A stretch of 64,000 nt of DNA from a virus, in IMG/VR virus record IMGVR_UViG_3300032307_000369, positions 94,875 to 158,874 of that record. One strand, given 5' to 3'. The notes beneath the pieces are model-generated. The model worked only from the letters and a program-made list of their open reading frames with translations, did not search any database and was not told the DNA's origin. How positions within the stretch are numbered: the first letter of the stretch is position 1; the number at the start of each line of letters is the position of its first letter. Of the stretch, positions 1,043-35,135 are shown in pieces. The position numbers and the translations under genes were made by a program.

Positions 1043-1071
1043 TTGACATAGCGTATAAAATCATTTAAAAT
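1043..1071 (+). promoter_or_regulatory. Sigma70-like promoter upstream of 1104
   Basis: TTGACA at 1043-1048 and TAAAAT at 1066-1071 are separated by 17 bp. The -35 is exact and the -10 matches TATAAT at five of six positions. It lies in the gap after the MazG-like gene and would drive 1104 onward, including the clamp loader. Judged by pattern only. Confidence 0.6.
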
Positions 1072-1103
1072 TATACTGTATATTTTTAATATGAAAGGTC
1101 GTT

Positions 1104-2183: not shown

Positions 2184-3103
2184 ATCAATTATGGGTAGAA
2201 AAGTATCGGCCTAAGAACGTAGATGGTTACGTGTTTAGAGATGAAAATCAACGTAAGCAAGTTGAAGCATGGATTAAACAAGGAAGTATTCCGCATCTAT
2301 TGTTAAGCGGTAGTCCTGGAATTGGAAAGACTACATTAGCCAAGTTACTGCTTAATGAACTAGAAATTCCTCAATATGATATCTTAGAAATTAACGCAAG
2401 TCGTGAACGAGGAATTGGTGAGGTTCGTGATAGAATTACTAACTTTATTCAAATGATGCCGTTTGGTCCATTTAAAGTAGTGTTACTTGACGAGGCTGAT
2501 TATCTAACTCCAGAAGCACAGGCAGCTATGCGTGGTGTTATGGAAGAATACTCCGGAACTAGTCGATTTATTTTGACCTGTAATCATCCTAATCAAATTA
2601 TTCCAGCTATTCATAGTCGTTGTCAGCAGTTTCACTTTGAAAAGATTGATCAAACAGAATTTACTGCTCGTGCGGCAACTATTTTGGTTGAAGAAGGAAT
2701 TGATTTTGATTTAGATAACTTAGACACATTTGTCAAAGCAACATATCCTGATTTGCGTAAATGTATCAACATGGTACAACAAAACTGTCAAGATGGAAAG
2801 TTGTTGGCTCCATCTAAATCTGATTCTGGAATGCAGGACTGGAAAGTTAAAATGGTTGAATTGTTTAAGGCTGGCAGAATTAGTGACGCAAGAAAAACTA
2901 TTTGTGCTAGTGCAAGACCAGAAGATCTTGATAGTGTATACAGATGGATGTATGACAACTTAGATGTGTTTAGTAAAGAAGAAGAACTGCAAGATCAAGC
3001 AGTGATTATAATTAAACAAGGATTAGTTGATCACACATTGATTGCTGATCCAGAAATTAATTTATCTGCAACTTTGATTAAGTTGGCAAAACTAGGAAAG
3101 TAA
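2180..3103 (+). CDS. 44: Sliding clamp loader ATPase subunit (gp44-like)
   Basis: A 307-residue AAA+ protein of the RFC/gp44 family. Walker A is GSPGIGKTT (about residues 44-52), Walker B is VVLLDEAD (98-105), and SRCQQF (about 146-151) carries the SRC arginine finger typical of clamp loaders. The C-terminal third is the helical collar. With its partner subunit it uses ATP to open and load the gp45 clamp at primer-template junctions. Length fits T4 gp44 (319 aa). The T4 partner gp62 is not recognisable in this window. It stops one base into the ATG of the next gene (TAATG). Confidence 0.9.
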   Translation: MNQLWVEKYRPKNVDGYVFRDENQRKQVEAWIKQGSIPHLLLSGSPGIGKTTLAKLLLNELEIPQYDILEINASRERGIGEVRDRITNFIQMMPFGPFKVVLLDEADYLTPEAQAAMRGVMEEYSGTSRFILTCNHPNQIIPAIHSRCQQFHFEKIDQTEFTARAATILVEEGIDFDLDNLDTFVKATYPDLRKCINMVQQNCQDGKLLAPSKSDSGMQDWKVKMVELFKAGRISDARKTICASARPEDLDSVYRWMYDNLDVFSKEEELQDQAVIIIKQGLVDHTLIADPEINLSATLIKLAKLGK

Positions 3104-3567
3104 TGCCTAGAAAAAACTCGGCCAAAGGACGTAATAGTTATGATGCTGAAATAGGGGACAGTGTTGTTCCCTTTTTTAATCGCAACGTAACTCCCTATCC
3201 CACTGAATCTGGCGGACCTAAGTTTGATTTAATACCAGTTACTAAACAAAAAGATATTATGATCAATCATGCTAGGATGTATGCCCAGCAGGAATATGAT
3301 CGTATTATGGAACTGGTTAAGGTATTGCAAAAACAAGCTGATGATATCAAACGTAGATTAGATGTTACTGATGCAGTACACGGAGCAGTATATCAGTTTC
3401 AACCAGTGATGGGTAATTGTTATTGGTTAGTGTGGGACAAGCGGAAGCAACATACATTATTAACCCAGAATGGACCTAACGATTGGTCTAGTAGTGCTCC
3501 AGAGGATTACGAATATCAGACACAGGTAAAATATATGGGTGACCATACCTGGATGGAAATAGAATAA
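3103..3567 (+). CDS. DUF2452-family protein
   Basis: A 154-residue protein matching my memory of the DUF2452 family: PYPTESGGPKFDL near residues 31-43, a helical segment with QEYDRIMELV (about 64-73), and a C-terminal beta-rich part with QFQP, YWLVWD and NGPNDWS. The family occurs in Bacteroidetes and Gammaproteobacteria and has no established biochemical role that I know. It starts in the stop codon of gene 44 and is the last gene before the terminator. In T4-like genomes gp62 often follows gp44; this protein does not look like gp62, but the position makes that worth testing. Confidence 0.7.
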   Translation: MPRKNSAKGRNSYDAEIGDSVVPFFNRNVTPYPTESGGPKFDLIPVTKQKDIMINHARMYAQQEYDRIMELVKVLQKQADDIKRRLDVTDAVHGAVYQFQPVMGNCYWLVWDKRKQHTLLTQNGPNDWSSSAPEDYEYQTQVKYMGDHTWMEIE

Positions 3568-9236: not shown

Positions 9237-9265
9237 AAAGGCAGCTTGACAGTTGCCTTTCTTTG
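9237..9265 (+). terminator. Terminator hairpin overlapping the dnaJ promoter
   Basis: Bases 9237-9246 pair with 9251-9260 (ten pairs including one G-T) around the loop TGAC, followed by CTTTC. It ends the lysis/lipoprotein unit. The -35 box of the dnaJ promoter (9246-9251) lies in the loop and upper stem. Confidence 0.6.
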
Positions 9266-9274
9266 TTATATAAT
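9246..9274 (+). promoter_or_regulatory. Consensus sigma70 promoter of dnaJ
   Basis: TTGACA at 9246-9251, a 17 bp spacer and TATAAT at 9269-9274: both hexamers match the consensus exactly. The ATG of dnaJ begins seven bases after the -10, so transcription should start at or next to the A of the start codon. Confidence 0.8.
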
Positions 9275-9280
9275 AGTGTT

Positions 9281-10123
9281 ATGAAAGATTATTATGGAAT
9301 CCTTGGTGTCCCAAAAACTGCATCAGCAGACGACATCAAAAAAGCATATAGAAAAGCGGCTATGAAGCACCATCCAGACAGAGGTGGTGATCAAGCACGT
9401 TTTAAAGAAATTAACGAAGCACATGATATATTATCCGACAAGGATAAACGTATGCAGTTGGATCAAGGTATTGATCCGCTAAATCCAAATCAAAGAACTT
9501 ATAGAAGTCAAAATTTTAATCAAGGCTTCAATAATATGGAAGATATCTTTCAAAACTTTGGATTTGATTTTGGCTTTACTCCTCGAGGCTTTAGACCACA
9601 AGCCCCTACAAAGAATAAATCATTTAATGTTCAAATGACGTTGACTCTAGAAGAAGCGTTTACGGGGATTAACAAAAACATTACAATTACTCATCCAGGC
9701 GGAGTTGGCAAAAACGTAGGAATTAATATTCCACCTGGCATCGATAATGGCATGGCCATACGCTATGCTGGAATGGGCGATGACAGCATTAATGGTCTGC
9801 CTGCTGGTGATCTAACAATTATAATTAATATCGCTCCGCATCCAGTGTATGCTAGAGAAGGACTAAATTTATTAACTGATGTTACAGTTGACTGCTTTGA
9901 TTCTATATTAGGAACAAATGCTGAAATTGATACACTAGATGGTAGAAGGTTGCAGGTAGTAGTTCCTGCTGGAACACAGCCTGGAACTACCTTAGGATTA
10001 AAAAATGAAGGAATGCGAGACCAACAAGGTAATGTTGGAAAACTATATGTAAGAGTAAATGTTAGCGTTCCTAAAATTACTGATCCTATTAAATTGTCCT
10101 TAATCAAACAACTTAAAAATTAA
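9281..10123 (+). CDS. dnaJ: DnaJ-type co-chaperone without zinc finger
   Basis: A 280-residue J-domain protein: DYYGILGVPKTAS at the N-terminus and the HPD motif at residues 31-33, then a Phe/Gly/Asn-rich linker (about 75-110) and the two beta-barrel substrate-binding domains (about 115-275). The CxxCxGxG zinc repeats of DnaJ are absent, so it is a type II/CbpA-like form. It would stimulate host DnaK ATPase and deliver clients. I start at the ATG at 9281, not the upstream TTG, because the promoter -10 box overlaps that region. Downstream lie def and clpA, making a proteostasis unit. Confidence 0.9.
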   Translation: MKDYYGILGVPKTASADDIKKAYRKAAMKHHPDRGGDQARFKEINEAHDILSDKDKRMQLDQGIDPLNPNQRTYRSQNFNQGFNNMEDIFQNFGFDFGFTPRGFRPQAPTKNKSFNVQMTLTLEEAFTGINKNITITHPGGVGKNVGINIPPGIDNGMAIRYAGMGDDSINGLPAGDLTIIINIAPHPVYAREGLNLLTDVTVDCFDSILGTNAEIDTLDGRRLQVVVPAGTQPGTTLGLKNEGMRDQQGNVGKLYVRVNVSVPKITDPIKLSLIKQLKN

Positions 10124-10131: not shown

Positions 10132-10644
10132 ATGGAAAAACTTGTATTTCATCCAGATCCAATTTTAGAAGAACAAATGCCAGCATTTGATTTTGACAAT
10201 CCTATTATGGATCCTAAAGAATTAGAAAAAGAACTATTAGCAATTATGTTTGCCAACAATGGCATTGGTCTTGCAAGTCCACAGATTGGCATAAGAACTA
10301 GAGTATTTGCAATGGGGCATTCACTTATGCCAGAAGCAAGTCTTGCAATGTTTAACCCAACTGTAATTGATGCTAGCAATGAATTTCAAGATATAGAAGA
10401 AGGATGTTTGAGTTTTCCAAATATTTTTGCTAAAATTAAAAGACCTACTTGGATTGTAGTAAAATACAATACTAGTGATAATGAAGAACGAACAGAACGA
10501 ATGGAGGGTTACAACTGTAAATGTTTTTTACATGAATTGGACCACTTAGATGGTATTGTAATGAAAGATCGTTTAAGTCAACTTAAATGGGCACTAGCCG
10601 TTAAAAAATCAAAAAAGGTAAAAAATTATGTTAGAACCAAATGA
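10132..10644 (+). CDS. def: Peptide deformylase
   Basis: A 170-residue protein with all three deformylase motifs: GIGLASPQ (residues 44-51), EGCLS with metal ligand Cys92, and HELDH with His134, Glu135 and His138. It removes the N-formyl group from new proteins, allowing N-terminal maturation, in the cytoplasm. Phage deformylases are known in marine myophages. The last residue of motif 1 region and the C-terminal helix are intact; length is that of bacterial Def. It ends inside clpA (17-base overlap). Confidence 0.9.
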   Translation: MEKLVFHPDPILEEQMPAFDFDNPIMDPKELEKELLAIMFANNGIGLASPQIGIRTRVFAMGHSLMPEASLAMFNPTVIDASNEFQDIEEGCLSFPNIFAKIKRPTWIVVKYNTSDNEERTERMEGYNCKCFLHELDHLDGIVMKDRLSQLKWALAVKKSKKVKNYVRTK

Positions 10645-12910
10645 AGATCTAGAAAAGATCTTTGAACGTGCAATTCAATTATCTTTGGATAACCACCACC
10701 AATATATTACTTTAGAACATTTCTTATATTGCATGGTTACTGACGAGTCATTTAACAGTGTACTTGTGGGTTATGGCACTGATGTTGAAGATTTAACTGC
10801 TAAGTTAGAAAACTATATTAAAAACGAGCTTGTTAGTATTGTTGATCAAACTTCAAATTCTAGACCAAAGAAAACTAATAGTGTTGAACGTATGCTTAAT
10901 AGAGCATTTACGCACACACTGTTCTCTGGAAGAACAACCATTGAACCAATTGATTGCTTTTTAAGCATTTTAAATGAAAAGAAAAGTCATGCGGCATTTT
11001 ATCTTCGCAGTGCTAATATTGAGAAGGACAAATTTATTGAGTATGTCAATAAAGAAATTGGCACAAGTAATCAAGACGGCGAAGAAGCCACAGTTCCAGA
11101 AAATAAACTTGAAGCATATATTGGCAACTTCTGCACAAACCTAAATGCCAAGGTTAAAAATAAAGAGATTGATCCAGTTATTGGCAGGGACAAGGAACTG
11201 GAAGAAATGCAATTGGTACTTGCACGTAGACACAAGTCAAACGTAATGCTAATTGGTGATCCAGGTGTAGGTAAAACAGCTCTTGCTGAAGGTCTTGCAC
11301 GTAAAATTGTTGAAGGTAACGTTCCTAAATTTATTCAAGATCACACAGTTTACACTTTAGACATTGGTGCTTTGTTAGCTGGTTCTAAATATCGTGGAGA
11401 TTTTGAAGAGCGTCTTAAAAATGTTCTTACAGCTATCCAGAAAAAGAAAAAGTGCATTTTGTTTATTGACGAAGCACACATGATGAATGGTGCAGGAACA
11501 AGCAGTGGACAAAGTAATGACATGGCTAACATGTTAAAACCTGCACTTGCTAAAGGCGGACTAAAAGTTATCGCTAGCACTACATGGGAAGAATTCCGTA
11601 AGCACTTTGAAAAGGATCGTGCGCTAATGCGTCGATTCCAACGTGTTATGGTTGGTGAGCCCGATGAAGTAACAACGATTAAGATTATCAAAGGTCTTAA
11701 AAAGTATTACGAAAAACATCATGGATGCAAAATTACTAATCAAGCAATTATTGATTCTGTAAAATACAGTGTTAAGTACATGAGTGATAAAAAATTGCCT
11801 GATAAAGCAATTGATATTATTGACTGTGCTTGTGCTCGTTTCAAAGTACGTGATGAAGAAGGCGGCACAGTTGACCACGATGAAGTTGTATTCGAAGTCG
11901 CTAAAATGACTGGATTACCTTTAGAACAAGTGGCTGCTAAGGATACAACAGTATTGCATGATTTAGAAGGCGATATTAAATCTGAAGTATATGGTCAGGA
12001 CACTGCTGTAGATTCATTACTTGATAAAATTTATATTGCACAAGCAGGTCTTAAGAGCCATAATAAACCAATTGGTAGCTTCTTGTTTGTTGGTCCAACT
12101 GGATGTGGCAAGACTGAAACTGCTAAAGTATTGGCAAATAAGATGGGCATTAAGATGCTACGTTTTGACATGAGCGAGTTCCAAGAAAAACACTCAGTTG
12201 CTAAATTTATTGGTGCTCCTCCAGGCTACGTAGGTTTTGAAGACAATGCTGGACAATTGATTACACAGCTTCAAGAAAATCCTAACTGTATTCTATTGTT
12301 AGATGAAATTGAAAAAGCTCACCCAGATGTTAGCAATGTTATGTTGCAACTTATGGACAACGGGTTTGTAACTGGCAGTAATGGCAAAAAAGCAGATGCA
12401 CGTAATGTTATTATCATTATGACATCTAATTTAGGTGCTTCTGATAGTGAAAAATCTAATATAGGTTTTGGCAGTCAAGAAAAATTAGGAGAGATTAATA
12501 ACGCTGTTAATAGATTCTTTGCTCCTGAATTCCGTAATCGTCTAGACGGTATTATTACATTTAAGAAACTTGAACACAGTGTAATGACAAAGGTAGTTGA
12601 CAAGTTCATTAAAGAAATGAATTCGTTAATCACTGACAAGAATGTGTTTGTACAGCTAACTGAAACTGCTAAAAATCATCTTATTGACAAAGGGTTTGAT
12701 AGCAAAATGGGTGCTAGACCAATGCAACGTGTTATTGATGACGGTATTAAAAAGCCATTAAGCAGACAAATACTGTTTGGTAAGCTAGTAAATGGTGGCT
12801 TGGTCAAAGTTGACTTTGTTGATAACCAACTAGTTTTTGATTATTTTGACCCTCTGCCAATTGTAAAAGATGTTGAAGCAAGTGCGGAAGAGAATGCAAC
12901 ACAAGATTAA
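10628..12910 (+). CDS. clpA: ClpA-like AAA+ unfoldase
   Basis: A 760-residue two-ring Clp ATPase. The N-domain (1-145) has the ClpA repeat pattern. D1 carries GDPGVGKTALAEGLAR (about 206-221) and LFIDEAHMM; D2 carries GPTGCGKTETAKVLA and LLLDEIEKAHPD, then NIGFGSQ, which matches the hydrophobic IGF/IGL loop that docks on ClpP. No ClpB-type middle coiled coil is seen. It should unfold proteins and feed them to host ClpP. It overlaps def and the next gene, both by 17 bases. All Walker and sensor regions look intact. Confidence 0.9.
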   Translation: MLEPNEDLEKIFERAIQLSLDNHHQYITLEHFLYCMVTDESFNSVLVGYGTDVEDLTAKLENYIKNELVSIVDQTSNSRPKKTNSVERMLNRAFTHTLFSGRTTIEPIDCFLSILNEKKSHAAFYLRSANIEKDKFIEYVNKEIGTSNQDGEEATVPENKLEAYIGNFCTNLNAKVKNKEIDPVIGRDKELEEMQLVLARRHKSNVMLIGDPGVGKTALAEGLARKIVEGNVPKFIQDHTVYTLDIGALLAGSKYRGDFEERLKNVLTAIQKKKKCILFIDEAHMMNGAGTSSGQSNDMANMLKPALAKGGLKVIASTTWEEFRKHFEKDRALMRRFQRVMVGEPDEVTTIKIIKGLKKYYEKHHGCKITNQAIIDSVKYSVKYMSDKKLPDKAIDIIDCACARFKVRDEEGGTVDHDEVVFEVAKMTGLPLEQVAAKDTTVLHDLEGDIKSEVYGQDTAVDSLLDKIYIAQAGLKSHNKPIGSFLFVGPTGCGKTETAKVLANKMGIKMLRFDMSEFQEKHSVAKFIGAPPGYVGFEDNAGQLITQLQENPNCILLLDEIEKAHPDVSNVMLQLMDNGFVTGSNGKKADARNVIIIMTSNLGASDSEKSNIGFGSQEKLGEINNAVNRFFAPEFRNRLDGIITFKKLEHSVMTKVVDKFIKEMNSLITDKNVFVQLTETAKNHLIDKGFDSKMGARPMQRVIDDGIKKPLSRQILFGKLVNGGLVKVDFVDNQLVFDYFDPLPIVKDVEASAEENATQD

Positions 12911-14115: not shown

Positions 14116-14484
14116 ATGAAATTATTTGAATTTTTTAGTCAGAATACAACTGAGCCAGCAGAGAAGGAAAATGACGACCAAATGCGTAAGGACGTCATGG
14201 CATTCATACTCGATGATAATGACATCTATCGAGAGCATCTTCTCCCGCTAATACACAAGCACAACAAAAACATTAAAGATGAAGACTTGCGTAAAGATTA
14301 CGTAAAAGTTGTTAACGACTGCTGCCTTCAATTTTATAAAGAAAAAGAATTAAAAACAGATCCAAATGATCTTTTCCCAAAGGCAATGAGGAATGAGATG
14401 GTAAAACAACTTATCAAGATCAATAAAGAAAATATTATCACTAAAAAGAAGAAAAAAGATGAAGATACGAGATCTGTTATTTGA
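14116..14484 (+). CDS. Unknown protein, first gene of the cargo operon
   Basis: A 122-residue highly charged helical protein. It begins MKLFEFFSQ, close to the leaders of the following genes but without a Glu at the expected cleavage position. The C-terminus (about 100-116) is a Lys-rich run. The next gene starts 26 bases before its stop. A core, scaffold or DNA-binding internal role is possible; no family is recognised. Confidence 0.55.
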   Translation: MKLFEFFSQNTTEPAEKENDDQMRKDVMAFILDDNDIYREHLLPLIHKHNKNIKDEDLRKDYVKVVNDCCLQFYKEKELKTDPNDLFPKAMRNEMVKQLIKINKENIITKKKKKDEDTRSVI

Positions 14485-14845
14485 GGGCAGGATTGATCCT
14501 TCTCTTTTAAATCAATTCCTAAAACATTGCTCTGAAGAATTAGGTCTTGAATCGTTACCTAAAATTAATCTTATAGATAATAAAGAGTATTCAATTACAC
14601 ATAAGTCATTTGGCGGGTACAGCCCAGATGAAAAATCAATAATACTTGCTACTGAAGGTAGACACCCAGTTGATGTGTTTAGAACGCTTGCACATGAACT
14701 AACACATTACAAACAAGACTTAGATGGACAACTTGAAGGCGACGATGTGGGTGCCACTGGTAGTCCACAAGAAAATGAAGCTAACTCTGTTGCTGGTATA
14801 ATAATGCGAAATTTTGGTCAGAAGTTTCCAGAAGTATTTGAATAA
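14459..14845 (+). CDS. Packaged HExxH metallopeptidase (putative)
   Basis: A 128-residue protein. The leader MKIRDLLFE is followed by Gly10, which fits a T4 gp21-type LxE|G prohead cleavage site. The body has the zinc protease motif H79-E-L-T-H83 in a helix and a downstream ENEAN helix (105-109) that could supply the third ligand. The size is small for a secreted protease, fitting a minimal gluzincin-like domain. If packaged it would enter the cell with DNA or act in head maturation. Catalytic residues look intact; substrate unknown. It overlaps the first operon gene by 26 bases. Confidence 0.65.
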   Translation: MKIRDLLFEGRIDPSLLNQFLKHCSEELGLESLPKINLIDNKEYSITHKSFGGYSPDEKSIILATEGRHPVDVFRTLAHELTHYKQDLDGQLEGDDVGATGSPQENEANSVAGIIMRNFGQKFPEVFE

Positions 14846-14853
14846 GGACCAAT

Positions 14854-15870
14854 ATGCGTATTAGAGATCTATTTGAAGGCGGGTGGGACACTACCAAAAC
14901 ACAAAATACTGTTTTACATCCTAAAATTGTAAGTGTTGCTCTGTCTGTAGTAGATCAATTTGTTATTGACTTTAATAATTTTATTAAAAATAAAAACATT
15001 GGTCAAATTAAACGTGGCAGACCAACAGGCAGTAGTGCATATCACGAACAAGATGCTATCGAAAAGCCTGAAACAATTTACGGCGACATAGACTTGCAAA
15101 TGATTGCTCCACCAGTTGAAGGGTTAACTTACGGGCAGTTTAGTGGTTATTGGAATAAGTTAGCAGATGATTTTGTTAAAACAGCTAATCCAACTTATGT
15201 AGACACAGCAGACAGCAAGCCAGGTCATCCAATTTTTCAAGTTGGTAAACAAGACTATGTACAAGTTGATTTTATGTGGCATGAACAAAAAATGGCAGAC
15301 TGGGGAGCAACTCGTGTAACTCCAGAACGTGGTGTCAAAGGATTATTGTCAGGTAACATGTACAGTGTGTTTGGCGAAATACTTGATATGAGCATACAAC
15401 ATGCTGGCGTACAACTTAAAGTGATTGATGATCAGCGTGTACCATTTAGTAAACAAAAAGATACGCAGACTATTACAGTAACAACAAATCCAAAAACATT
15501 TATACTAGATGTTTTCATGTATTTGGCAAAACGTATGGGTGTAAACAATCCAAAGATTGATCCTATGCTTAAACAGTTTTCAGGTAATGACATTAATGAT
15601 GTTAAAATAAGCAAACTAGTTAATGGTATGAAAGGATTTGCCTCAAGTGCCGAAGCAAGCGGTATGTTTGGTAACGGGGATTTACAAAATTTCAACTCTG
15701 CTCAAGATTTTATGAATAAGTTTTGGCAACGTTACGAAGAAAAAGCACAAATTGACATTGCTGGCAAAAAGCGTGACAAAGCACAGACCCCAGACGCTAT
15801 TGCACGTGCCAATGCAGACAGAGAAAAGATCCAAAAAGGTCTAGATATGGTTAAGGGATATTTCCAATGA
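14854..15870 (+). CDS. Packaged nucleotidyltransferase-like protein
   Basis: A 338-residue protein. MRIRDLFE|GG is a capsid-leader-like N-terminus with an LFE|G site. Residues 55-80 show the polymerase-beta-type nucleotidyltransferase signature: Gly59-Ser60 and then D78-I-D80; D139 in QVDFMW fits the third metal Asp. Such folds transfer NMP to RNA, proteins or small molecules. The C-terminal half is helical (from about 215) with a charged end. The gene follows the protease after eight bases and overlaps the next by four. Target is unknown; a similar fold is found at 16257. Confidence 0.6.
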   Translation: MRIRDLFEGGWDTTKTQNTVLHPKIVSVALSVVDQFVIDFNNFIKNKNIGQIKRGRPTGSSAYHEQDAIEKPETIYGDIDLQMIAPPVEGLTYGQFSGYWNKLADDFVKTANPTYVDTADSKPGHPIFQVGKQDYVQVDFMWHEQKMADWGATRVTPERGVKGLLSGNMYSVFGEILDMSIQHAGVQLKVIDDQRVPFSKQKDTQTITVTTNPKTFILDVFMYLAKRMGVNNPKIDPMLKQFSGNDINDVKISKLVNGMKGFASSAEASGMFGNGDLQNFNSAQDFMNKFWQRYEEKAQIDIAGKKRDKAQTPDAIARANADREKIQKGLDMVKGYFQ

Positions 15871-16244
15871 GAGCAAAAGAATTTATTACTGAACTTAAAG
15901 CGCCAACAATAACCAACAGACAAGGTAAGTCAACCACTGCAATACATCTTTACACTGATGCTGAAAGACGCAATAGTGATTATGTGTCATATCGTTTAGG
16001 TATGGCTGTGGCGTGTACTGATGGAACGAACGATCCAGACATGGATGGCAAAAGTTGGGTAGACAAGAGTAAAACAACACATCCATATACTTCTCAAGAA
16101 CAAGAGATGTTAAAGAAAGCCTATAAGGTTGTAGGTGCAAAATATACAGATTTGACCAAAGGTGATATGAGAAGTCAAGAACTGAATACTACTAACGTTG
16201 TTAGTCCTGTTGCTAAACCCAAACGAAACAAATACGGCGTGTAA
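15867..16244 (+). CDS. Conserved leader-bearing phage protein
   Basis: A 125-residue protein starting MRAKEFITE|L, which resembles T4 internal-protein leaders (T4 IPIII starts MKTYQEFIAE|A). The body has VSYRLGMAVA, an Asp-rich loop (DPDMDGKSWVDK, about 54-65), a helical HPYTSQEQEMLKKAYKVVG segment and a basic Pro/Lys C-terminus. I recall similar proteins in other marine phages, all of unknown function. ATGA overlap with the gene before. Likely a small internal head protein, by inference. Confidence 0.6.
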   Translation: MRAKEFITELKAPTITNRQGKSTTAIHLYTDAERRNSDYVSYRLGMAVACTDGTNDPDMDGKSWVDKSKTTHPYTSQEQEMLKKAYKVVGAKYTDLTKGDMRSQELNTTNVVSPVAKPKRNKYGV

Positions 16245-16256
16245 CGAGAGTTAAAA

Positions 16257-17096
16257 ATGAAAATATTTGAACTGTTAATTGAAAGTGGTAAACGACTTGC
16301 TAGTCAAGGAGTTGAAGTCTCTAGAGTAAACAAAGAAGACTTCAATGCCGCTAAAAATGTTTTAAATCCTATTCTAATCAAAGCAGGAATTAAAGCAGGA
16401 TGGACTGCTGGCGGAGCTGGTAGTTTTGATCCAGAGCATGATTATGGTGGCGGTGGTAGAGAGGACAGTGGTGATATTGATATTATGATTGATCCAACTG
16501 ACTTGGTAAAACAATTTCCTCCTAATGTTGAAGCATATAACGCCGCAAGTAAAAAACCAATTGGTCCAAAAGCAATGGCATCAGCCATGGCGGATCCTGC
16601 TAAAAAAGCAAAAATTGAGATGAGTGCAAGTAAATGGGCACTTGCAACTTATATGTCAAAGAACGGATTTATAACTGACCCAGGAACGTTAACTGTTGAA
16701 TACACTGCTGGTGGACAAAGTTTCTCAGTTGATTTAATTATACGTCCACGTAATGCATGGCCGTTGCACACACATGATTTTGTAACTGACCCAAAAATGC
16801 GTGGTGGCGATTTATGGACACAGATGTATCCAGTACTTGCTAAACTTGCAAGCCAAAAAACATTTGTTGATCCAAAAACAGGCGAAGAAAAAGGCAACCT
16901 ACAATTCAGCCCAGACAGAGGATTGGTAGACAGAGATACTGATAAAGTCATTGCAATCAACAAAGATGACATTGCTAAAATATTGTTACACCCACAAGCA
17001 ACAGCTAGAGATTTAGCAAGTATGACAGGTATTAGAAATGCGTTGTCTAAACAGCCTGAAAAACTGTCAAAACTACCACAGCCACAAGAGCAATAA
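16257..17096 (+). CDS. Second packaged nucleotidyltransferase-like protein
   Basis: A 279-residue protein with the leader MKIFELLIE|S. The GS...DxD pattern is clear: Gly55-Ser56, a Gly-rich loop, then D73-I-D75, and D159 in FSVDLII as third metal ligand. It shares the order of motifs but little other sequence with the 14854 product, so they are distant relatives or independent recruits. RGGDLWTQMYPVLAKLA forms a helix after the catalytic domain; the end is Pro/Gln/Lys-rich. AGAG precedes the ATG. Function beyond nucleotidyl transfer is not known. Confidence 0.6.
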   Translation: MKIFELLIESGKRLASQGVEVSRVNKEDFNAAKNVLNPILIKAGIKAGWTAGGAGSFDPEHDYGGGGREDSGDIDIMIDPTDLVKQFPPNVEAYNAASKKPIGPKAMASAMADPAKKAKIEMSASKWALATYMSKNGFITDPGTLTVEYTAGGQSFSVDLIIRPRNAWPLHTHDFVTDPKMRGGDLWTQMYPVLAKLASQKTFVDPKTGEEKGNLQFSPDRGLVDRDTDKVIAINKDDIAKILLHPQATARDLASMTGIRNALSKQPEKLSKLPQPQEQ

Positions 17097-17099
17097 ATA
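17092..17099 (+). promoter_or_regulatory. Late promoter element before 17105
   Basis: AATAAATA matches NATAAATA and overlaps the stop codon of the preceding gene. It ends five bases before the ATG at 17105, so a transcript from it would have almost no leader. Confidence 0.5.
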
Positions 17100-17104
17100 C
17101 ACTT

Positions 17105-19507
17105 ATGAATTTATTTGAACTGTTCTCACCCAATAAACAAATTATTATGGAAGGCATTGACCATCCAGAAGATCTCATTATCTCGCAAGGTAGTGCAGGT
17201 GCTGACAGGGTATTAAAAGATTTAGCAAGTTTAGAAAAAGATCCAAGTACAGTTACAGTTAAATGGGACGGCTTTCCAGCAGTAGTATTTGGTAGAGACA
17301 AAGGCGGAAACTTAGTGTTTATGGATAAGCACATGTACGAAAAAGTATCTGCTGGCAAAATGGATTTTATGTCCATTAAAGATTATGATGAAAGTCGTGG
17401 AGCCAATCGTTCAAGTCTAATTGACCAAGAAAGTGTAATACGTCCGCTATTGAGCAAAATTGTTCCTAACGTTCGAGATCAATATTGGATGGGCGACTTA
17501 ATGTGGACTGGCACCCCGCCAGTTAGTAATGGTGCATTTGTCTTTAAACCAAATACGGTTGAATATCAAGTTGACATAGATCAAAGTCCTGGAGTTGGCG
17601 ATTCATTAAGCGACAAGATTGCTAGAAGCGGGGCAGGAATTGCAGTACATACTTTTATTCCAGGATTAGGACAACCTGATCAACCACTTGTTGGTCTTAA
17701 AGGATTACCAGAAGATGCTGGCATTACTTTCCTAGTAGGAGAGATGAAGGACAAACCACGTGTTGCAATTAATTCAGAATTATTAAATCAAACGCAACAA
17801 ATAATTAATGCAAATAGAAGTGCTGTGGATAAATTCTTTGTTGATCTAACTGCAATGAAAGGCAAGAGTGTTGTAACTGCCATGGGCCCTTTCATCACAC
17901 GCATGTTAGAAGACAATGATATTAAAGGCAACATTGTTCCTAGATTCTTAGAATTTTTAGGAGAGCGTTTAACTGACAGTGCTAAACAAAAAATGTTAGG
18001 CACTAACAAAGATGGTTGGCTTTATCAAGAACAAGGCGGTGCTCCAGGACTACTTGGCATTTGGACCATGTGGGCCGCTATTACTGAATTAAAATTAAAT
18101 ATTAAACAACAAATTGATACGCAACAGCAAGGTAGTAAGATACGTGCTGTTACTGATGGAATTAACGCACATGAAGGTTATGTGTTTGGTGCTGGTAAAG
18201 ACAAATTAAAACTAGTTGATAGATTAGGATTTAGCAGAGCAAACTTTGCTAAACATAAAGTTAGTGATGAAGAAGTGGCTGAAAAAAGTAAAATGCCGTT
18301 GGCAGTTTTTTGCTTTGGACGTATGAATCCGCCAACAATGGGACACGGTCTTGTTTTAAATAAAACAATTGAACTTGGCAAACAAAATGCATTTATATTT
18401 TTAAGTAATAGTGTTGACCCTACAGAAAATCCTTTACAGCCATCAATAAAAGCAAAATTTGTTGAACAAATTTATCCTAATACCAAAGGACACATTGTTA
18501 CAGAATTTGTCCAAAATCCAATATACGCTGCCAACTGGTTATATGCTAAAGGCTATCGAAATATGGCATTTGTTGCTGGCAGTGATAGATTGGGTAAAGA
18601 AAAGGGCAGTATTGAAAAAATACTTAACAGTTGGAATAGCGGTCCAGTTAGAAGTACCGATCCTGCTGGCGCTAGAGATTTCGTACAAATACAATACATA
18701 AGTGCAGGTGATAGGGATCCTGATAGTGAAGGAGTTTCAGGCTTCAGTGGATCTAAAGCACGTCAAGCAGTGACCGCAAATAACGAACAACAGTTTCAAC
18801 AATATACTGGAATTGGTAATGATATCGTTGTTAATGGTAAAACACTATATCAGTCAGTTAGAGAAGGTATGGGTATAAAAGATCAAAAACCAACTGCTCC
18901 AGCCGTGCCTGCTAAACAACCTACTATCAATGTACCAAATCAAAATGTCACTACTAAACAACCTGTTGAAAAGAAAGTTCCTGGACAAGCCCCAATGCAA
19001 AAAACAAATCAAGCAGACTTGGTTGAGAGTGTGCTAAGAGACAAAGAAGATTATTATGCCAAACGTAAGGCATTACAAGATATTCAATTGGATCCAAATA
19101 CTGCTAAAGATGAAGAATTAAGAAAAGAACTTATTAGACGTAAACACGCTTTAGAACGTGAAGCCAAAAAGAAAGGTGTTATTGCTGAATCAATTATTAG
19201 ATCAATTATTGATGAAGCACCAATCGAGATGGATCCACAAAATCCAAATGACCCAATGGTTATGCCACCTGGTCTTAATCCAGGAAAACTTAGCTATCGT
19301 AAACAACGTGCGGCTGCACAATTGGCAGATTTAGCTCGTATGGCTTCACAGGCAAATGAAAAGAATAGTGCTATAATGTGGGATAGCATTGTTAAACATT
19401 TTCCAGAGTTAGAAACAAACATTCGCAGTATACAACATGGCATGCAAGAATTAGAAAAAGTTAGACGTGCAGGCGGAAAACAAAGTAGAGGAATTGAAAA
19501 AATATGA
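17105..19507 (+). CDS. KxDG ligase-like / HxGH-type nucleotidylyltransferase fusion
   Basis: An 800-residue protein. The leader MNLFELF runs to QIIME|G16-17, a good IxE|G cleavage site. Residues 50-75 have K53-W-D-G, the adenylation motif of the DNA/RNA ligase and capping superfamily; this region matches a phage domain I recall as DUF6267. A second domain has GRMNPPTMGH (about 406-415) and FSGSKAR (about 545-551), the HxGH and SxxxxR motifs of NMNAT/cytidylyltransferases. A Pro/Gln linker and a charged helical C-terminus follow. It could ligate, cap or NAD-modify RNA or make cofactors; none is shown. ATGA with the next gene. Confidence 0.65.
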   Translation: MNLFELFSPNKQIIMEGIDHPEDLIISQGSAGADRVLKDLASLEKDPSTVTVKWDGFPAVVFGRDKGGNLVFMDKHMYEKVSAGKMDFMSIKDYDESRGANRSSLIDQESVIRPLLSKIVPNVRDQYWMGDLMWTGTPPVSNGAFVFKPNTVEYQVDIDQSPGVGDSLSDKIARSGAGIAVHTFIPGLGQPDQPLVGLKGLPEDAGITFLVGEMKDKPRVAINSELLNQTQQIINANRSAVDKFFVDLTAMKGKSVVTAMGPFITRMLEDNDIKGNIVPRFLEFLGERLTDSAKQKMLGTNKDGWLYQEQGGAPGLLGIWTMWAAITELKLNIKQQIDTQQQGSKIRAVTDGINAHEGYVFGAGKDKLKLVDRLGFSRANFAKHKVSDEEVAEKSKMPLAVFCFGRMNPPTMGHGLVLNKTIELGKQNAFIFLSNSVDPTENPLQPSIKAKFVEQIYPNTKGHIVTEFVQNPIYAANWLYAKGYRNMAFVAGSDRLGKEKGSIEKILNSWNSGPVRSTDPAGARDFVQIQYISAGDRDPDSEGVSGFSGSKARQAVTANNEQQFQQYTGIGNDIVVNGKTLYQSVREGMGIKDQKPTAPAVPAKQPTINVPNQNVTTKQPVEKKVPGQAPMQKTNQADLVESVLRDKEDYYAKRKALQDIQLDPNTAKDEELRKELIRRKHALEREAKKKGVIAESIIRSIIDEAPIEMDPQNPNDPMVMPPGLNPGKLSYRKQRAAAQLADLARMASQANEKNSAIMWDSIVKHFPELETNIRSIQHGMQELEKVRRAGGKQSRGIEKI

Positions 19508-20331
19508 AAATTAAACAACTTTTAGACGAAGCTAAAAAAGGTGTTAAAGCACCTAAGCATACAGTAAAGCCTAGAAACTTTGTTGCCAAAAATGCTATTG
19601 CTACTACTAGTGGAGCTGGCGCACACAAAGATAAAAAGAAAGCTGAAAAGCAAGGCGATGTCAAACACAAGAAACAAGCTGTTCCCGTAGATGAACAGAC
19701 TGTAGCAGAAGAGAAACAAAAAGGTGTTGATGGCAAAGCCTGCTGGAAAGGCTATAAGCGCATGGGCACTAAGAAGAAAGGTGGCAAGACTGTAGACAAT
19801 TGTGTGCCAATGAATGAAAGTTTTGATCCTGAATACGATGACGAAGCTGGAATGGCTGACAATAATCTTGAAACTCTAAAAAGAGCAGTAGAAGGCTTAG
19901 ACGACATGATCAATGAAGGCGATAACTTGCCTGAATGGTGTCAAGAAAAAATTGCAGTAGCAAAAAGCATGTTGATCTCAGTTTGGGACTACATGCAAAG
20001 TGAAGAAAACAGTATGTCTGAAAATCAAAGAAATCCTGATCTAATGAGTCAAAGTGATTATGACCGATATCAACAAGGTCAAATGGACCAACAAAAACGT
20101 GACTTTAAACGTGACGAAATGGAACATGAACTTGGTCACGAAGAAAGAGGAATGTATTATGTTGTGATTGCTAAAAATGGCAAATGGGAACATACTAAAG
20201 CACAGCCAAGGCAAGAAGGTATGAATGCCGCACAACGAATTATCAGTGCGTTACATGCAAAGTATCCAAGTATGCACTTGGGCATGGTAGGTCCTGATGG
20301 CAAAGTATATAATTATGGCAAGGGCAAATAA
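19504..20331 (+). CDS. Lys-rich internal head protein candidate
   Basis: A 275-residue hydrophilic protein with leader MKIKQLLDE|A (LxE|A site). Residues 10-75 are very Lys/Ala-rich and basic, then comes a conserved-looking GKACWKGYKRMGTKKKGGKTVDNCVP block (about 78-103), an acidic helix (110-160) and a C-terminal domain with MYYVVIAKNGKWEHTK and MHLGMVGPDGKVYNYG, which looks like a small beta-rich module. The basic region suits DNA contact inside the capsid. Overlaps neighbours by ATGA before and by one base gap after. Confidence 0.6.
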   Translation: MKIKQLLDEAKKGVKAPKHTVKPRNFVAKNAIATTSGAGAHKDKKKAEKQGDVKHKKQAVPVDEQTVAEEKQKGVDGKACWKGYKRMGTKKKGGKTVDNCVPMNESFDPEYDDEAGMADNNLETLKRAVEGLDDMINEGDNLPEWCQEKIAVAKSMLISVWDYMQSEENSMSENQRNPDLMSQSDYDRYQQGQMDQQKRDFKRDEMEHELGHEERGMYYVVIAKNGKWEHTKAQPRQEGMNAAQRIISALHAKYPSMHLGMVGPDGKVYNYGKGK

Positions 20332-20332
20332 A

Positions 20333-20767
20333 ATGGATAAGTTACAGTTAGCATTAAAAACAGCATTTGCAAGTGAATACTCGTTTGCATTAAAAGCACA
20401 AAATTTTCACTGGAATGTGGAAGGCATGTTCTTTACTCAATTTCATGATTTGTTTGGCGACATTTACAATGAAGTATATGGGAATATTGATGCGTTTGCA
20501 GAGAATATTAGAAAAGCAAAAGCATATACCCCTGCAAGTTTAACACGTTTCAGTATGTTGAGTGTAATTCAAGATGAGACTGAAATGTTAGAGGCACCAG
20601 AAATGTGTGCAGAACTTTTATCTGATTCTGATAAGATGGCAGAAATTCATAGATTAACTTTTCAATTATCTGAAGAAGCAGGTGAACATGGTCTTAGTGA
20701 CTTTTTAGCAGGAAGACAAGATGCCTTCCGTAAACACTCTTGGATGTTAAGAGCCACATTGAAATGA
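20333..20767 (+). CDS. Dps/ferritin-like protein
   Basis: A 144-residue protein with the Dps signature: QNFHWNVEG (His26), FHDLF (His38), NIDAFAENIR (Asp53, Glu57). The Asp/Glu normally four residues after the second His is Gly42, so the ferroxidase site may be altered. Dps proteins form 12-mers that oxidise iron and shield DNA. The gene lies in the cargo operon but lacks its leader sequence. I start at the ATG at 20333 (AAGGG upstream); the ATG at 20315 would add six residues. Overlaps the M15 peptidase by four bases. Confidence 0.75.
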   Translation: MDKLQLALKTAFASEYSFALKAQNFHWNVEGMFFTQFHDLFGDIYNEVYGNIDAFAENIRKAKAYTPASLTRFSMLSVIQDETEMLEAPEMCAELLSDSDKMAEIHRLTFQLSEEAGEHGLSDFLAGRQDAFRKHSWMLRATLK

Positions 20768-21435
20768 AAATCAAAGAGCTATTAGAACAGAAACAAACTT
20801 CCAATGAGGATATTGGTAAAATAGCCAGTACCGTTGCGGATAAAGTGAGTGATGTTGCTAAGCCAGTTATAGATAAAGTAAGTGACTTTACTAAACCAGT
20901 TATAGATAAAGTAAGTGACTTTGCTAAACCAGTAGTGGACAAAGTAAAAGACGTTGCACGTCCTTATGTAGACAAACTTTCAACTAGTGTTAAAGACGTG
21001 CTGCCTAAAGATGTTGGAGATAAGGTTGTACATTATGCAGGTGATGGACATGACCATCCACCAAATATGCAATTTGCCAGCGACAAGTATAGAGAAAGAA
21101 TGTCAAATTTAGATCCATCTTTTAAAGACGCACTCTATAGAGCGGCAAAAGATTCTGGTCTACCAATGCAGGTTACCAGTTCTCATAGATCTCAAGCAGA
21201 ACAAGACGACTTATATAGACGATGGTTAAAAGGCGAACCTGGTATTTTTAAACCAAGTAAAAATGTTGGAAGCCATGGCGGGTTTGCTGTGGATATGAAT
21301 GCAAAAGATGTTGCTAATTTACACGCATGGTTAAAAAAGAACGACCCAGATGGTACCAAGTATGGACTACAAACTGGAATTGAATTTGGTGACCCTGTAC
21401 ATGTCCAATTACGAAATTTTAATAAACGAGTATGA
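20764..21435 (+). CDS. Virion M15-like peptidoglycan peptidase with 11-residue repeats
   Basis: A 223-residue protein. The leader MKIKELLE|Q is followed by an amphipathic repeat region (25-75) built of 11-residue units such as DKVSDFAKPVI. The catalytic domain has SSHRSQAEQDDLY (Arg142), SHGGFAVD (His171, Asp177) and HVQL (His213), the ligand pattern of M15/VanY-type D,D-carboxypeptidases or L-Ala-D-Glu endopeptidases, one residue shorter in the central loop than VanY. It could open peptidoglycan during entry. Start at the ATG at 20764, coupled to Dps by ATGA. Confidence 0.65.
   Translation: MKIKELLEQKQTSNEDIGKIASTVADKVSDVAKPVIDKVSDFTKPVIDKVSDFAKPVVDKVKDVARPYVDKLSTSVKDVLPKDVGDKVVHYAGDGHDHPPNMQFASDKYRERMSNLDPSFKDALYRAAKDSGLPMQVTSSHRSQAEQDDLYRRWLKGEPGIFKPSKNVGSHGGFAVDMNAKDVANLHAWLKKNDPDGTKYGLQTGIEFGDPVHVQLRNFNKRV
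20839..20976 (+). repeat. 33-bp tandem repeat, about four copies
   Basis: Units begin at 20839, 20872, 20905, 20938 and (partial) 20971, each starting GATAAAGT or GACAAA. Copies two and three are nearly identical, copies one and four more diverged. They encode the 11-residue amphipathic repeats of the M15-like peptidase. Confidence 0.85.
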
Positions 21436-21725
21436 AACAGTATAAGATTACTACTGATAATATTGTCAATGACAGTCCAGACGATTGTTATATAGACCCT
21501 GCAGATCCTTTAAACGAAATAAAGGCTCTGCAATATCTTGGTGGTATCAATTCTCTAAATAGATTGCAAGAATATAAAGGCATGCAAGGTAGTAATATTA
21601 GCGCAACTGGTTCAGAAAAAGGAAGATTACAAAGAGAACATAATATTAAACCTGGTACTCCTGAATGGTTTAAACTATGGTTTAGCTTACCTTATATGAC
21701 TGGTGAGAGGCCTATTAAAAAATGA
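21432..21725 (+). CDS. Conserved small phage protein
   Basis: A 97-residue protein with DPADPLNEIKALQYLGG, a basic helix and a C-terminal IKPGTPEWFKLWFSLPYMTGERP motif that I recall from other marine phages without known role. It has no capsid-like leader. Overlaps both neighbours by ATGA junctions, inside the cargo operon. Confidence 0.6.
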   Translation: MKQYKITTDNIVNDSPDDCYIDPADPLNEIKALQYLGGINSLNRLQEYKGMQGSNISATGSEKGRLQREHNIKPGTPEWFKLWFSLPYMTGERPIKK

Positions 21726-22855
21726 AAATAAGAGATTTATTAGAGTTATCAAAAACTAGTCCACTAGGCAGAGCACTTGACCAATTTAGTGGTTCAATTG
21801 ACACTGAAAAAATTGGCAATCAAATATCCAATGTGTTCAAACCAGACACAGTTGCTGATACTAATCGTTCAACCAATATCACTTCTGCTCCTGGTACGTC
21901 ATCATCTAGTAAACCTGTTGCATCTGCGCCTAAGACAGACAACGTATTATCTGATGTAGAAAGTGAACTTGATAGACAAGGAATCACAGATCCATTTGTT
22001 AGAAAATCTATTCTAGCTAAAACTGGGCAAGAGTCAGGATCTAAATATAGAGTTACTGAAATTCCTTTCAAAAATACAAGTAATGATACTATTAGATTGC
22101 GATTACCACAACTACAAGGTATGAGTGATGAAGAACTCAATGCCTTAAAACAAGACAAAGTGGCGTTTTTTAACAGGGCATATGGATATAAAGGCAACAC
22201 GTTAAACAATAACGAACCAGGTGATGGTTGGAAATATCGAGGTCGTGGTCTAACTGGTATCACTGGAAAAGTAAATTATCAAAGAGTTGACGATGCACTA
22301 GGGCTTAAGGGCGAGTTGGTTAAAAATCCAGATCTATTGCTAGATCCTGAAATTGATAAAAAAGCATCTGTTTGGTACTACAAGGCAGCTGGTGCAAACA
22401 ATGTAAAATTTGACAATCAAGAAGATGCAAATAAATGGGCCATACACAAGGCTGGCGGGAACATGTATGCTCCTGGTACTAAATTAGGAAATATAGCACT
22501 AGATGACATGAACAAAAGGACTGCTGTAATTGCTACTACGGGAGCCGCAGTTTTAGCTGGTCCTACTTTATTAAATAAAGCAAAAGATATAATTGGAAAC
22601 TTAAAAGGTACTGCTGGCAATGTAGTTAACACTGCAAAAAATGTTGGTGTAAGAACTGCTGCCACTGCCGCACTAGCAGGTAGTTTAGGTGGAGGTGGTG
22701 GGAGTGGTGGAGGATACTATACCAGTAGAACTTCTGAAGAACCAGAAATTGTCGTTATAATTAACGGCAAACGTAAAAAATTTAAAACTAAAGCAGAAGC
22801 ATTGCAGGCAATTAAGTTAGCTAAACAACAAGGATTGGAAGTGTCAAATGGGTAA
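21722..22855 (+). CDS. Virion-associated GH19 lysozyme-like protein
   Basis: A 377-residue protein with leader MKIRDLLE|L, a Ser/Thr/Pro-rich spacer (55-85), and a GH19-like core: AKTGQESGSKYRVTE (about 99-113; catalytic Glu in QESG) and GDGWKYRGRGLTGITGKVNY (about 166-185), which parallel HESGGF and the groove motif of the endolysin at 5686. Then come an Ala/Gly hydrophobic stretch (260-330, a possible membrane-active segment with a poly-Gly run) and a basic C-terminus. It probably digests cell wall at infection rather than at lysis. ATGA junction upstream. Confidence 0.65.
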   Translation: MKIRDLLELSKTSPLGRALDQFSGSIDTEKIGNQISNVFKPDTVADTNRSTNITSAPGTSSSSKPVASAPKTDNVLSDVESELDRQGITDPFVRKSILAKTGQESGSKYRVTEIPFKNTSNDTIRLRLPQLQGMSDEELNALKQDKVAFFNRAYGYKGNTLNNNEPGDGWKYRGRGLTGITGKVNYQRVDDALGLKGELVKNPDLLLDPEIDKKASVWYYKAAGANNVKFDNQEDANKWAIHKAGGNMYAPGTKLGNIALDDMNKRTAVIATTGAAVLAGPTLLNKAKDIIGNLKGTAGNVVNTAKNVGVRTAATAALAGSLGGGGGSGGGYYTSRTSEEPEIVVIINGKRKKFKTKAEALQAIKLAKQQGLEVSNG

Positions 22856-23456
22856 GCCAGAAGTTTATTTAGATATGGACGGAGTTATTGCAGACTTTTT
22901 TACAGAGTATGCTAAACTTGCGGGTATTGAATCAGGAAACTATAGAGATATTCCCCCGGCTAAAACAGATCCTACATTAAACAAAATGATAGGTACTAAC
23001 TTTTTTGCACGATTACCAAAATGCAGAAATGCAGATGCACTAGTAGACTTAATAGTAAAAACGTTTGGTAGTTTTAATATCTGTTCAAGTCCTTTGCGTG
23101 GTGATCATGATAACAGTGAAAAACAGAAAAAGATTTGGCTTAACAATAATCTAAAATATCAACCTAAAGATGTTGTAATTACGCCAAACAAAGCCAAATG
23201 GGCCAAGCAAAAAGATGGTACTCCAAACATCCTAATTGATGACCGAGGGAGTAATATTAGTTCTTGGGAAGCCGCTGGAGGTATTGGTATCAAATATCAA
23301 GCAGACGAAGATAGCCTACAGGTGATAGTGCAAGGAATTAAAAGAGCGTTTTCTGTCATAAAAGGCGAACAAGAGCATAATCCGCAACAATTAAAAAGTT
23401 TAGATCGTAGCAGTGGTAACTTAATTGCTACCAGTGGTGATAAAGACTCCCATTAA
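22848..23456 (+). CDS. HAD-family phosphatase, 5'-nucleotidase-like
   Basis: A 202-residue protein with HAD motif I YLDMDGVIADFF (Asp9, Asp11), motif II CSSP (around residue 80), a Lys in KAKW near 124, and motif III LIDDRGSNI (about 129-137). This order fits 5'(3')-deoxyribonucleotidase-like HAD enzymes that dephosphorylate nucleotides. The Ser-rich C-terminus (170-202) looks unstructured. It overlaps the GH19 gene by eight bases. It lacks the capsid leader, so whether it is packaged is open. Confidence 0.7.
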   Translation: MGKPEVYLDMDGVIADFFTEYAKLAGIESGNYRDIPPAKTDPTLNKMIGTNFFARLPKCRNADALVDLIVKTFGSFNICSSPLRGDHDNSEKQKKIWLNNNLKYQPKDVVITPNKAKWAKQKDGTPNILIDDRGSNISSWEAAGGIGIKYQADEDSLQVIVQGIKRAFSVIKGEQEHNPQQLKSLDRSSGNLIATSGDKDSH

Positions 23457-23465
23457 GGACATATT

Positions 23466-23702
23466 ATGAAAATTCAAGAAATTATTACAGAAACTGCTAC
23501 AGCTGGTTCAACAAGTGCTAGTAATATTGCTAGTACTGGGAATAGTCCTCATGTTGCTGTTGGAAGTCCAGCAGTAATCAAACGTTGGGGTGGAAGTCCA
23601 GGAAAAATGGGCAAGAGCCCTAGTCCAACTAAAACAGAGCCACAGGATGCTGAAGATAACCCAGTGACCAATCCTAAAGTTGGCAACAACTTAATTTCTT
23701 AA
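23466..23702 (+). CDS. Small leader-bearing Ser/Gly/Pro protein
   Basis: A 78-residue protein with leader MKIQEIITE|T and an otherwise low-complexity body of Ser, Gly, Pro, Thr and Lys, including GGSPGKMGKSPSP. No fold is predicted. Similar short proteins occur in marine T4-like phages by memory. If the leader is cut, about 69 residues would remain in the head. AAGGA precedes the ATG. Confidence 0.55.
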   Translation: MKIQEIITETATAGSTSASNIASTGNSPHVAVGSPAVIKRWGGSPGKMGKSPSPTKTEPQDAEDNPVTNPKVGNNLIS

Positions 23703-34385: not shown

Positions 34386-35135
34386 ATGACATCAAAAAAT
34401 AATGAAACAGGCTTAGACGCAATGGCAGGCGATGGCGGATATAAAGAAGCATATCTAGCAGATGTAATTCGCTTTAAAATGAAACGTGATCAAAAACGTT
34501 TTTGGGCAGGTGACAATGTATCAGATTATGTCACTGAAGAAATGAAACACAAGCTCATTGACGAAGCAACTGAAGCATTTGAACTAGTACTAGATCGATT
34601 GCTTATTGATCGAGAAAATGATCCTAACTCGCATGGTACAGCCCGCCGACTGGCTAAAATGTACTTTAATGAAATAATGGCAGGAAGATATGAACCAGCA
34701 CCAGATTGTACAGCATTTCCAAATGACTCGGCGGACCGTTATGAGGGTATGTTGGTTGTTCGTAGTGAGCTTCGCAGTATGTGTAGCCATCATCACCAAC
34801 CCGTTGCTGGCGTTGCTTATATTGGCATTATTGCTGCCGAGAAACTCATTGGACTCAGCAAATACACACGCATCGCACAGTGGTGTGCAAGACGAGGTAC
34901 TCTCCAGGAGGAACTTTGTAATGACATTGCTAGGGAGATCCAAAAAGCAACAAACTCCCAAAACGTAGCAGTCTACATTCAAGCCACACATGGTTGCTGT
35001 GAGAATCGCGGCATTATGGCTCACAGTTCATTAACACAAACAACTGTACTAACTGGTACGTTTAAAACTGATCCAGGAGCGAAAAAAGAATTTTTTGATA
35101 ACATTAAATTACAACAAGAGTTTGCTCCTAGATGA
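34386..35135 (+). CDS. folE: GTP cyclohydrolase I (FolE)
   Basis: A 249-residue protein. RSELRSMCSHHHQPV carries the zinc-site Cys133 and His136, KLIGLSKYTRI (153-163) and QATHGCCENRG with Cys204/205 complete the family signature. It converts GTP to dihydroneopterin triphosphate, the first step of both folate and preQ0 synthesis. With QueD-like, QueE and DpdA here, the second is the likelier use; DHFR and thymidylate synthase at 45792-47164 leave folate supply open. The N-terminal 50 residues are an extension compared with E. coli FolE (222 aa). Confidence 0.9.
   Translation: MTSKNNETGLDAMAGDGGYKEAYLADVIRFKMKRDQKRFWAGDNVSDYVTEEMKHKLIDEATEAFELVLDRLLIDRENDPNSHGTARRLAKMYFNEIMAGRYEPAPDCTAFPNDSADRYEGMLVVRSELRSMCSHHHQPVAGVAYIGIIAAEKLIGLSKYTRIAQWCARRGTLQEELCNDIAREIQKATNSQNVAVYIQATHGCCENRGIMAHSSLTQTTVLTGTFKTDPGAKKEFFDNIKLQQEFAPR

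Follow-up and report, generated by a model that had tools for sequence, protein, structure and literature searches.

The window, a stretch of 64,000 nucleotides, corresponds to positions 94875-158874 of a 245,550-base virus record, from a large aquatic phage, that carries T4-like head genes (head maturation protease, major head protein and portal protein). At 17105-19507 of the window, on the plus strand like the domains, motifs and leader genes located below, an ATG-initiated gene (P0001) encodes a protein of 800 residues. A preliminary description of the sequence had noted in this protein the motifs K53-W-D-G (residues 53-56), GRMNPPTMGH (405-414) and FSGSKAR (547-553). All three lie where it placed them and belong to domains that exceed chance resemblance, as residues 18-385 match Pfam DUF6267 (E 1.4e-29) and residues 372-617 match PHROG cytidyltransferase families (E 3e-39). 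A Pfam scan of the whole protein adds a weak CTP_transf_like match at residues 403-494. Taken with the models, these matches predict two nucleotidyltransferase folds in one chain, a covalent-type fold in the N-terminal DUF6267 domain and a (T/H)xGH adenylyltransferase in the C-terminal half. The chain ends in a helical tail (19010-19504), of mixed confidence in the full-length model and missing from many relatives.

Residues 397-593 (18293-18883) clearly adopt, in the model, a (T/H)xGH adenylyltransferase fold of the PPAT/NMNAT type, an assignment that draws on PHROG matches, the model, structure alignment and HMMs. The domain has pLDDT above 90 across most of its length in the full-length model, and the Rossmann-type HxGH site anticipated in the preliminary description is found in the predicted structure, which VIA-align matches at Z 12-13 over ~155 residues to PPAT and archaeal NMNAT (12.2 for NadM). 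Among 81 homologues, G-R-x-N-P-P-x-x-G-H and S548...R553 are near-invariant. In the first signature, GRMNPPTMGH (18317-18346), H414 is present in 81 of 81 and position 411 is Thr in 65 and His in 14; in SGSKAR (residues 548-553; 18746-18763), the second signature of the superfamily, S548 and R553 are both present in 81 of 81. The other invariant residues are S434, P443, K449, G492, D494 and G535. The domain thus shares (T/H)xGH, S-x-S-x-x-R and the fold with NMNATs (archaeal NMNAT, NadR, NadM) and with PPAT/CoaD; unlike them, it falls under every curated cut-off and is joined to an extra ligase-like domain and a capsid leader. NMNAT HMMs match more members of the family than CoaD does, and the best member reaches E 7e-8 against nadR_NMN_Atrans. 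The window protein itself stays short of the curated NMNAT cut-off, with 13.9 bits where TIGR00482 asks for 112.

The N-terminal half belongs to DUF6267 (PF19782), a family to which Pfam assigns no function, and Pfam, structure and motifs together predict that residues 18-385 (17156-18259) form a covalent nucleotidyltransferase of the ligase superfamily. Across 84 divergent homologues, most of which share ~20-30% identity with the window protein, no variation is seen at G32, K53, D55, G56, G63, D131, N150, Y154, G178, H182, K330, E357, G358, V360 and K369, which in sequence order give a motif I KxDG, an acidic motif III, a motif IV EGxV and the Lys of motif V. Motif I is K53-W-D-G (17261-17272), with Lys53 as the predicted nucleophile. 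The motif III equivalent is G130-D131 (17492-17497), its acid being Asp in place of the usual Glu, motif IV reads E357-G-Y-V360 (18173-18184), and motif V is K367-L-K369 (18203-18211). The AlphaFold model of the domain (pLDDT 86.6, pTM 0.81) places these motifs on or beside strands, as expected, with an insertion of ~120 residues between motifs III and IV. This insertion is helical (model helices 224-341; 17774-18127) and, by motif spacing, has no direct counterpart in canonical ligases.

Structural comparison of the DUF6267 model points to ligases. Foldseek alone gives no significant match in the PDB, with ligases among its top rows. When the best 1000 chains are re-aligned with VIA-align 2, the best 50 rows are all RNA or DNA ligases, at Z 5.7-7.7, although a Z below 8 can by itself reflect merely a common arrangement and is insufficient to convince. 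The top row is Naegleria RNA ligase (Z 7.7, 4.1 Å over 184 residues); T4 Rnl1 scores 6.8, T4 Rnl2 6.6 and fungal Trl1 6.1, and DNA ligases, at about Z 6, rank below the RNA ligases. Annotated RNA ligases also recur in a BFVD search, at weak E and ranked after members of DUF6267 itself. No such link emerges from sequence methods: hmmsearch of DUF6267 against the PDB gives no match, a Pfam scan of the 84 members gives a single match to a ligase family (one member, E 0.017; PF09511 and PF09414 are the Rnl1 and Rnl2 profiles), and hhalign against the T4 Rnl2 clade gives E 0.15 with the motifs not aligned. For this reason DUF6267 is placed in the covalent nucleotidyltransferase superfamily as a probable member, and not in Rnl1 or Rnl2; the placement is likely because exclusive matches to ligases, motif order and invariance combine. 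A probable ligase-type nucleotidyltransferase domain, as foreseen in the preliminary description, is present in the predicted structure with all core motifs and moderate Z (at most 7.7), and its kinship to ligases is seen, in the model, at the level of fold and motif, not of sequence.

ATP-dependent RNA ligases (T4 Rnl1 and Rnl2, Naegleria Rnl, fungal Trl1) and DUF6267 have in common the order of KxDG, acidic motif III, EGxV and Lys and, probably, the nucleotidyltransferase fold seen in the model. DUF6267 differs from them in its lack of detectable sequence or profile similarity, the Asp for Glu in motif III, the long stretch of helices inserted between motifs III and IV, the fused or linked HxGH domain and, in the window protein, the capsid leader. 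An NAD-dependent ligase whose NMN is recycled by the NMNAT half was considered and dropped, as there is no domain Ia and PF01653, the LigA adenylation domain, has no match anywhere in the genome.

Both halves are widespread, and they are usually separate neighbouring genes, which the preliminary description overlooked, as it did the standing of DUF6267 as a known uncharacterised family. By tblastn, 507 phage records match at least one half, mostly from Synechococcus and Prochlorococcus phages, and none covers 80% of the query. The halves are separate genes in P-TIM40, HTVC008M and P-HM2, and directly adjacent in P-TIM40 and P-HM2. Their cyanophage homologues are T4-GC71 (DUF6267) and T4-GC190 ('cytitidyltransferase'), which adjoin each other in P-HM2, P-TIM40 and S-SM1 and remain separate genes there, whereas they are fused in the window. 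Among 144 metagenomic or genomic loci with the ligase-like half or both halves, fusion is seen in 30; the HxGH gene is the immediate neighbour in 36 and lies within 1.5 kb in 28. In about 17 loci no HxGH gene lies near although 3 kb or more of downstream sequence is available, and the partnership is therefore strong but not obligatory.

The fusion is real rather than an assembly artefact, since ~18 contigs of the window's own clade, from different metagenomes, show it, as do two or more further clades. On a tree built from 122 DUF6267 domains, the fused state has to change five times, and good branch support makes four of these changes unavoidable. Fused proteins stand in the freshwater clade of the window, in the L062 group and in the L020/L022 group, and the tree suggests that fusion arose about three times. 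These distributions mark the fusion as one form of a widely distributed two-gene module and no unique oddity. Fused forms already stand unremarked in public databases (A0A6J5L7B8 and, from S-PM2, A0A0M6VVW4). In a near-identical relative (95%; L017, 5956-8351), a frame change splits the fused gene between the two domains, which may be a sequencing error or a real split.

The HxGH domain has other partners as well. At 13 marine loci it is fused to a Pol-beta nucleotidyltransferase (NTase), with NTP_transf_2 (PF01909) above the cut-off in two, and at L078 (6171-8909) one leader-bearing chain, directly after the DUF6267 gene, combines an AAA_33 kinase (E 2.8e-12), a Pol-beta NTase and the HxGH domain. 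This chain is the richest version of the module seen. Elsewhere, HxGH proteins adjoining DUF6267 carry a RimK-like ATP-grasp and a zinc protease (L083, 5531-8671), DUF192 and HNH (L049, 3242-6040) or PAP2 (L101, 1840-4833), and these multi-domain proteins look like polyvalent packaged proteins.

Residues 1-16 of the fused protein (17105-17152) form a leader of the capsid-targeting type, MNLFELFSPNKQIIME, with a predicted prohead-protease cut after E16 (IME↓G). In T4, the N-terminal ten residues of IPIII suffice for head targeting, and L/I-x-E precedes the point of cleavage by gp21 (PMC9026906); a gp21-like protease is encoded in the same genome as the window protein. The packaging leader proposed in the preliminary description gains weight from its surroundings, as similar leaders accompany MNLFELFSPNKQIIME↓G, ten in all among 13 genes in a row. 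The pattern M[KRN]xx[DEQK][LFIY][LFI] occurs on these ten of the 13 (14116-23702) but on just 4 of the 235 remaining genes (Fisher p 1e-12); among 1079 internal methionines, it occurs at 3. Within the window's clade, an (I/L/V)xE↓G site stands at the same place in 12 of 12 distinct N-termini, the remainder of the leader being variable. A laxer regular expression proved unspecific, matching 30% of control ORFs (14% in a second version), and the leader evidence is restricted to the stricter pattern and the conservation of the cleavage site. An internal prohead-protease site between the domains (EEVAE↓K) was likewise dropped, being unconserved in A1. On these sequence grounds, a capsid-packaging leader on the fused protein is credible.

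Virion proteomics bears on the HxGH half. The cytidylyltransferase T4-GC190 was detected in S-SM1 virions by mass spectrometry (PMC3037559); it is 33% identical to the window's HxGH domain, begins MKKFSAFLNEAE, and its gene adjoins a shortened DUF6267 without a leader. Some other cyanophage DUF6267 proteins also lack a leader. NMNAT-like proteins were independently detected in virions of S-CREM2 (three unique peptides) and S-SCSM1, where the authors did not exclude contamination by an abundant protein (PMC10665884, PMC9602691). The fused protein resembles T4 internal proteins and Alt in its short N-terminal leader with hydrophobic residues, the L/I-x-E cut site and the gp21-like protease of its genome. 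The cargo differs, being a predicted ligase-adenylyltransferase here and an ADP-ribosyltransferase or small basic protein in T4.

The neighbouring leader genes include two that the preliminary description had passed over, both with Pol-beta-type nucleotidyltransferase motifs. One, of 338 residues (14854-15870), has GSS...YGDIDL...VQVD, kept in 9 homologues, and the other, of 279 residues (16257-17096), has GGAGS...SGDIDI...SVDL, kept in 12. Despite these conserved motifs, neither has a Pfam or PDB match; a PDB search with the marine fused Pol-beta domain also gives none, and profile comparison reveals no link between that domain and the two window genes. Upstream of the fused gene, the leader pattern is also found on MKLFEFF... 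(14116-14484), MKIRDLL... (14459-14845; HExxH metallopeptidase-like) and MRAKEFI... (15867-16244), and downstream on MKIKQLL... (19504-20331), MKIKELL... (20764-21435; VanY/M15-like peptidase domain), MKIRDLL... (21722-22855; GH19 chitinase/endolysin-like) and MKIQEII... (23466-23702). The leader genes of the region include low-complexity proteins. The two peptidoglycan enzymes (VanY/M15-like and GH19-type) bear the same capsid-type leader and may be head-packaged too. A Ferritin/Dps-like protein (20297-20767; PF00210, E 3e-16) lies inside the cluster and is itself without a leader.

Elsewhere in the record, a polynucleotide-kinase-like gene (57082-57546) is followed by an Rnl1-type RNA ligase (57877-58863; PF09511, E 1.5e-12), a conventional tRNA-repair pair (57082-58863; L151, L152), and there are 19 tRNAs, 16 of them in a block at 376-3414 and three near 50.8-54 kb. 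Because the genome has the Rnl1-type ligase, the kinase-like gene and these tRNAs, RNA repair appears to be part of the phage's programme. Jumbo-phage RNA-repair sets comprise an RNA ligase, the Pol-beta NTase RlaP and a polynucleotide kinase (PMC7824862). The module resembles such cassettes in that a ligase-fold protein is linked to Pol-beta-type NTases and, at L078, to an AAA_33 kinase. It departs from them in that the window's Pol-beta genes match no known family, leaders would package the set into the head, and an HxGH domain is added.

The reading that we favour, with middling confidence and from sequence and models, is that of a head-packaged bifunctional nucleotidyltransferase for early RNA-end repair by pre-made enzyme, with NAD-type adenylyl transfer as its second activity. 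The leader would direct the fused protein into the prohead, the gp21-like protease would remove residues 1-16, and the packaged protein would be ejected with the phage DNA into the cell. There, Lys53 would be adenylylated, with ATP as the likeliest donor, and the AMP would be passed to a 5'-phosphate end for sealing, most likely of cleaved RNA such as tRNA. The product of the (T/H)xGH domain would carry a pyrophosphate-linked adenylyl group and would most likely be NAD(+), formed from NMN and ATP. Acting jointly, the two domains could undo, ahead of phage gene expression, the effects of early host defences that cleave RNA or deplete NAD, so that the injected enzyme would protect or repair the cell's molecules in the opening minutes of infection. 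Once made, the distinct Rnl1-type ligase of the phage and its polynucleotide-kinase-like neighbour could take over. Several observations count against this reading: the absence of a sequence or profile link to ligases, VIA Z values below 8, the Asp in motif III, a helical insertion (~224-341) without a recognised role, leaderless cyanophage DUF6267 proteins, the ~17 unpartnered loci and the lack of a nicotinamide phosphoribosyltransferase (NAMPT). The interpretation in the preliminary description is partly supported, by both predicted structures and by the leader; an action on host RNA, tRNA or NAD at infection is a putative function, and the kinship of the ligase-like half to ligases is not visible by sequence. 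More tentatively, DUF6267 may add a third major family to the covalent nucleotidyltransferases of phages, spread among T4-like aquatic phages and carried in the virion with HxGH and Pol-beta NTases as a machine for RNA-end repair or capping that acts before phage transcription.

Restoration of NAD(+) may instead be the main job, with an injected NMNAT rebuilding NAD after NAD-depleting defences and DUF6267 serving as an accessory nucleotide-handling domain. NMNAT models do match many HxGH members, the leading structural matches include archaeal NMNAT and NadM, NMNAT-like proteins have repeatedly been reported in cyanophage virions (PMC9602691) and phage pathways of NAD reconstitution are known (PMC12774641). 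However, no match reaches the curated NMNAT cut-off, PPAT scores equally by structure, and a search of the genome gave no NAMPT that could serve NAD salvage; nor would this reading account for the strictly conserved ligase motifs or for the Pol-beta and kinase fusions. We consider this reading unlikely, and favour RNA-end repair over pure NAD synthesis because the HxGH half is elsewhere fused to a Pol-beta NTase, in one case together with a kinase.

Capping enzymes belong to the ligase superfamily, and the two domains might act in series, the HxGH domain making an adenylylated compound and the ligase-like domain attaching a nucleotide to a host RNA 5' end or a protein (cap-like modification or AMPylation), a take-over comparable in purpose to that by T4 Alt. 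Such an early modifying role would suit head packaging, and a relay would be in keeping with the roughly three origins of the fusion and the tight gene linkage. Direct evidence for any target is lacking, however, and in most phages the domains are separate genes, which suggests cooperation over a single relay; the proposal is rather improbable. More doubtful still is a role at DNA ends, in which a packaged ligase-like protein would seal or protect nicks and ends of the injected genome. DNA ligases do figure at Z ~6 among the structural matches, and the searches of the genome gave no DNA ligase family of either the ATP or the NAD type, but RNA ligases outrank them, no OB domain typical of DNA ligases is recognised in the chain, and the partners are Pol-beta NTases and an adenylyltransferase. 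The least probable account is that both domains are degenerate and serve as filler or structure of the head core, as abundant internal virion proteins can (PMC9026906) and as the low-complexity leader proteins and the shortened DUF6267 of S-SM1 might suggest, since the catalytic residues of both domains are invariant down to ~20% identity.

Literature searches for DUF6267 and 'cytitidyltransferase' returned nothing. Each part of the module belongs to a known kind. The literature searched yielded no account of the combination, of the leader or of DUF6267 as a ligase-superfamily enzyme, and a ligase relationship of GC71/DUF6267 was found stated neither there nor in Pfam. Between them, DUF6267 and its (T/H)xGH partner turn up in more than 500 phage records, mostly of marine cyanophages, and the HxGH partner, detected in virions, is one of the core genes of cyanophages. 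The assignment of DUF6267 as a probable ligase-superfamily enzyme, and of the pair as head cargo, provides a testable hypothesis for two unexplained genes of very abundant sea viruses. It would also widen the principle known from T4 Alt, by which ready-made enzymes enter the cell along with the genome, so that it covers nucleic-acid repair or NAD metabolism as well as ADP-ribosylation.

Other genes of the phage include a 509-residue ORF at window position 29638 with no Pfam match, a DnaJ (window 9263-10123; PF00226, PF01556), an Hsp70-like ORF that starts MSKIIGIDLGTTNSCVAVIE (genome 34490-36379) and a Clp-type ATPase (window 10628-12910; PHROG 4871). The window also encodes a GTP cyclohydrolase I (34386-35135; PF01227, E 2e-39), possibly part of a deazaguanine pathway of DNA or tRNA modification.
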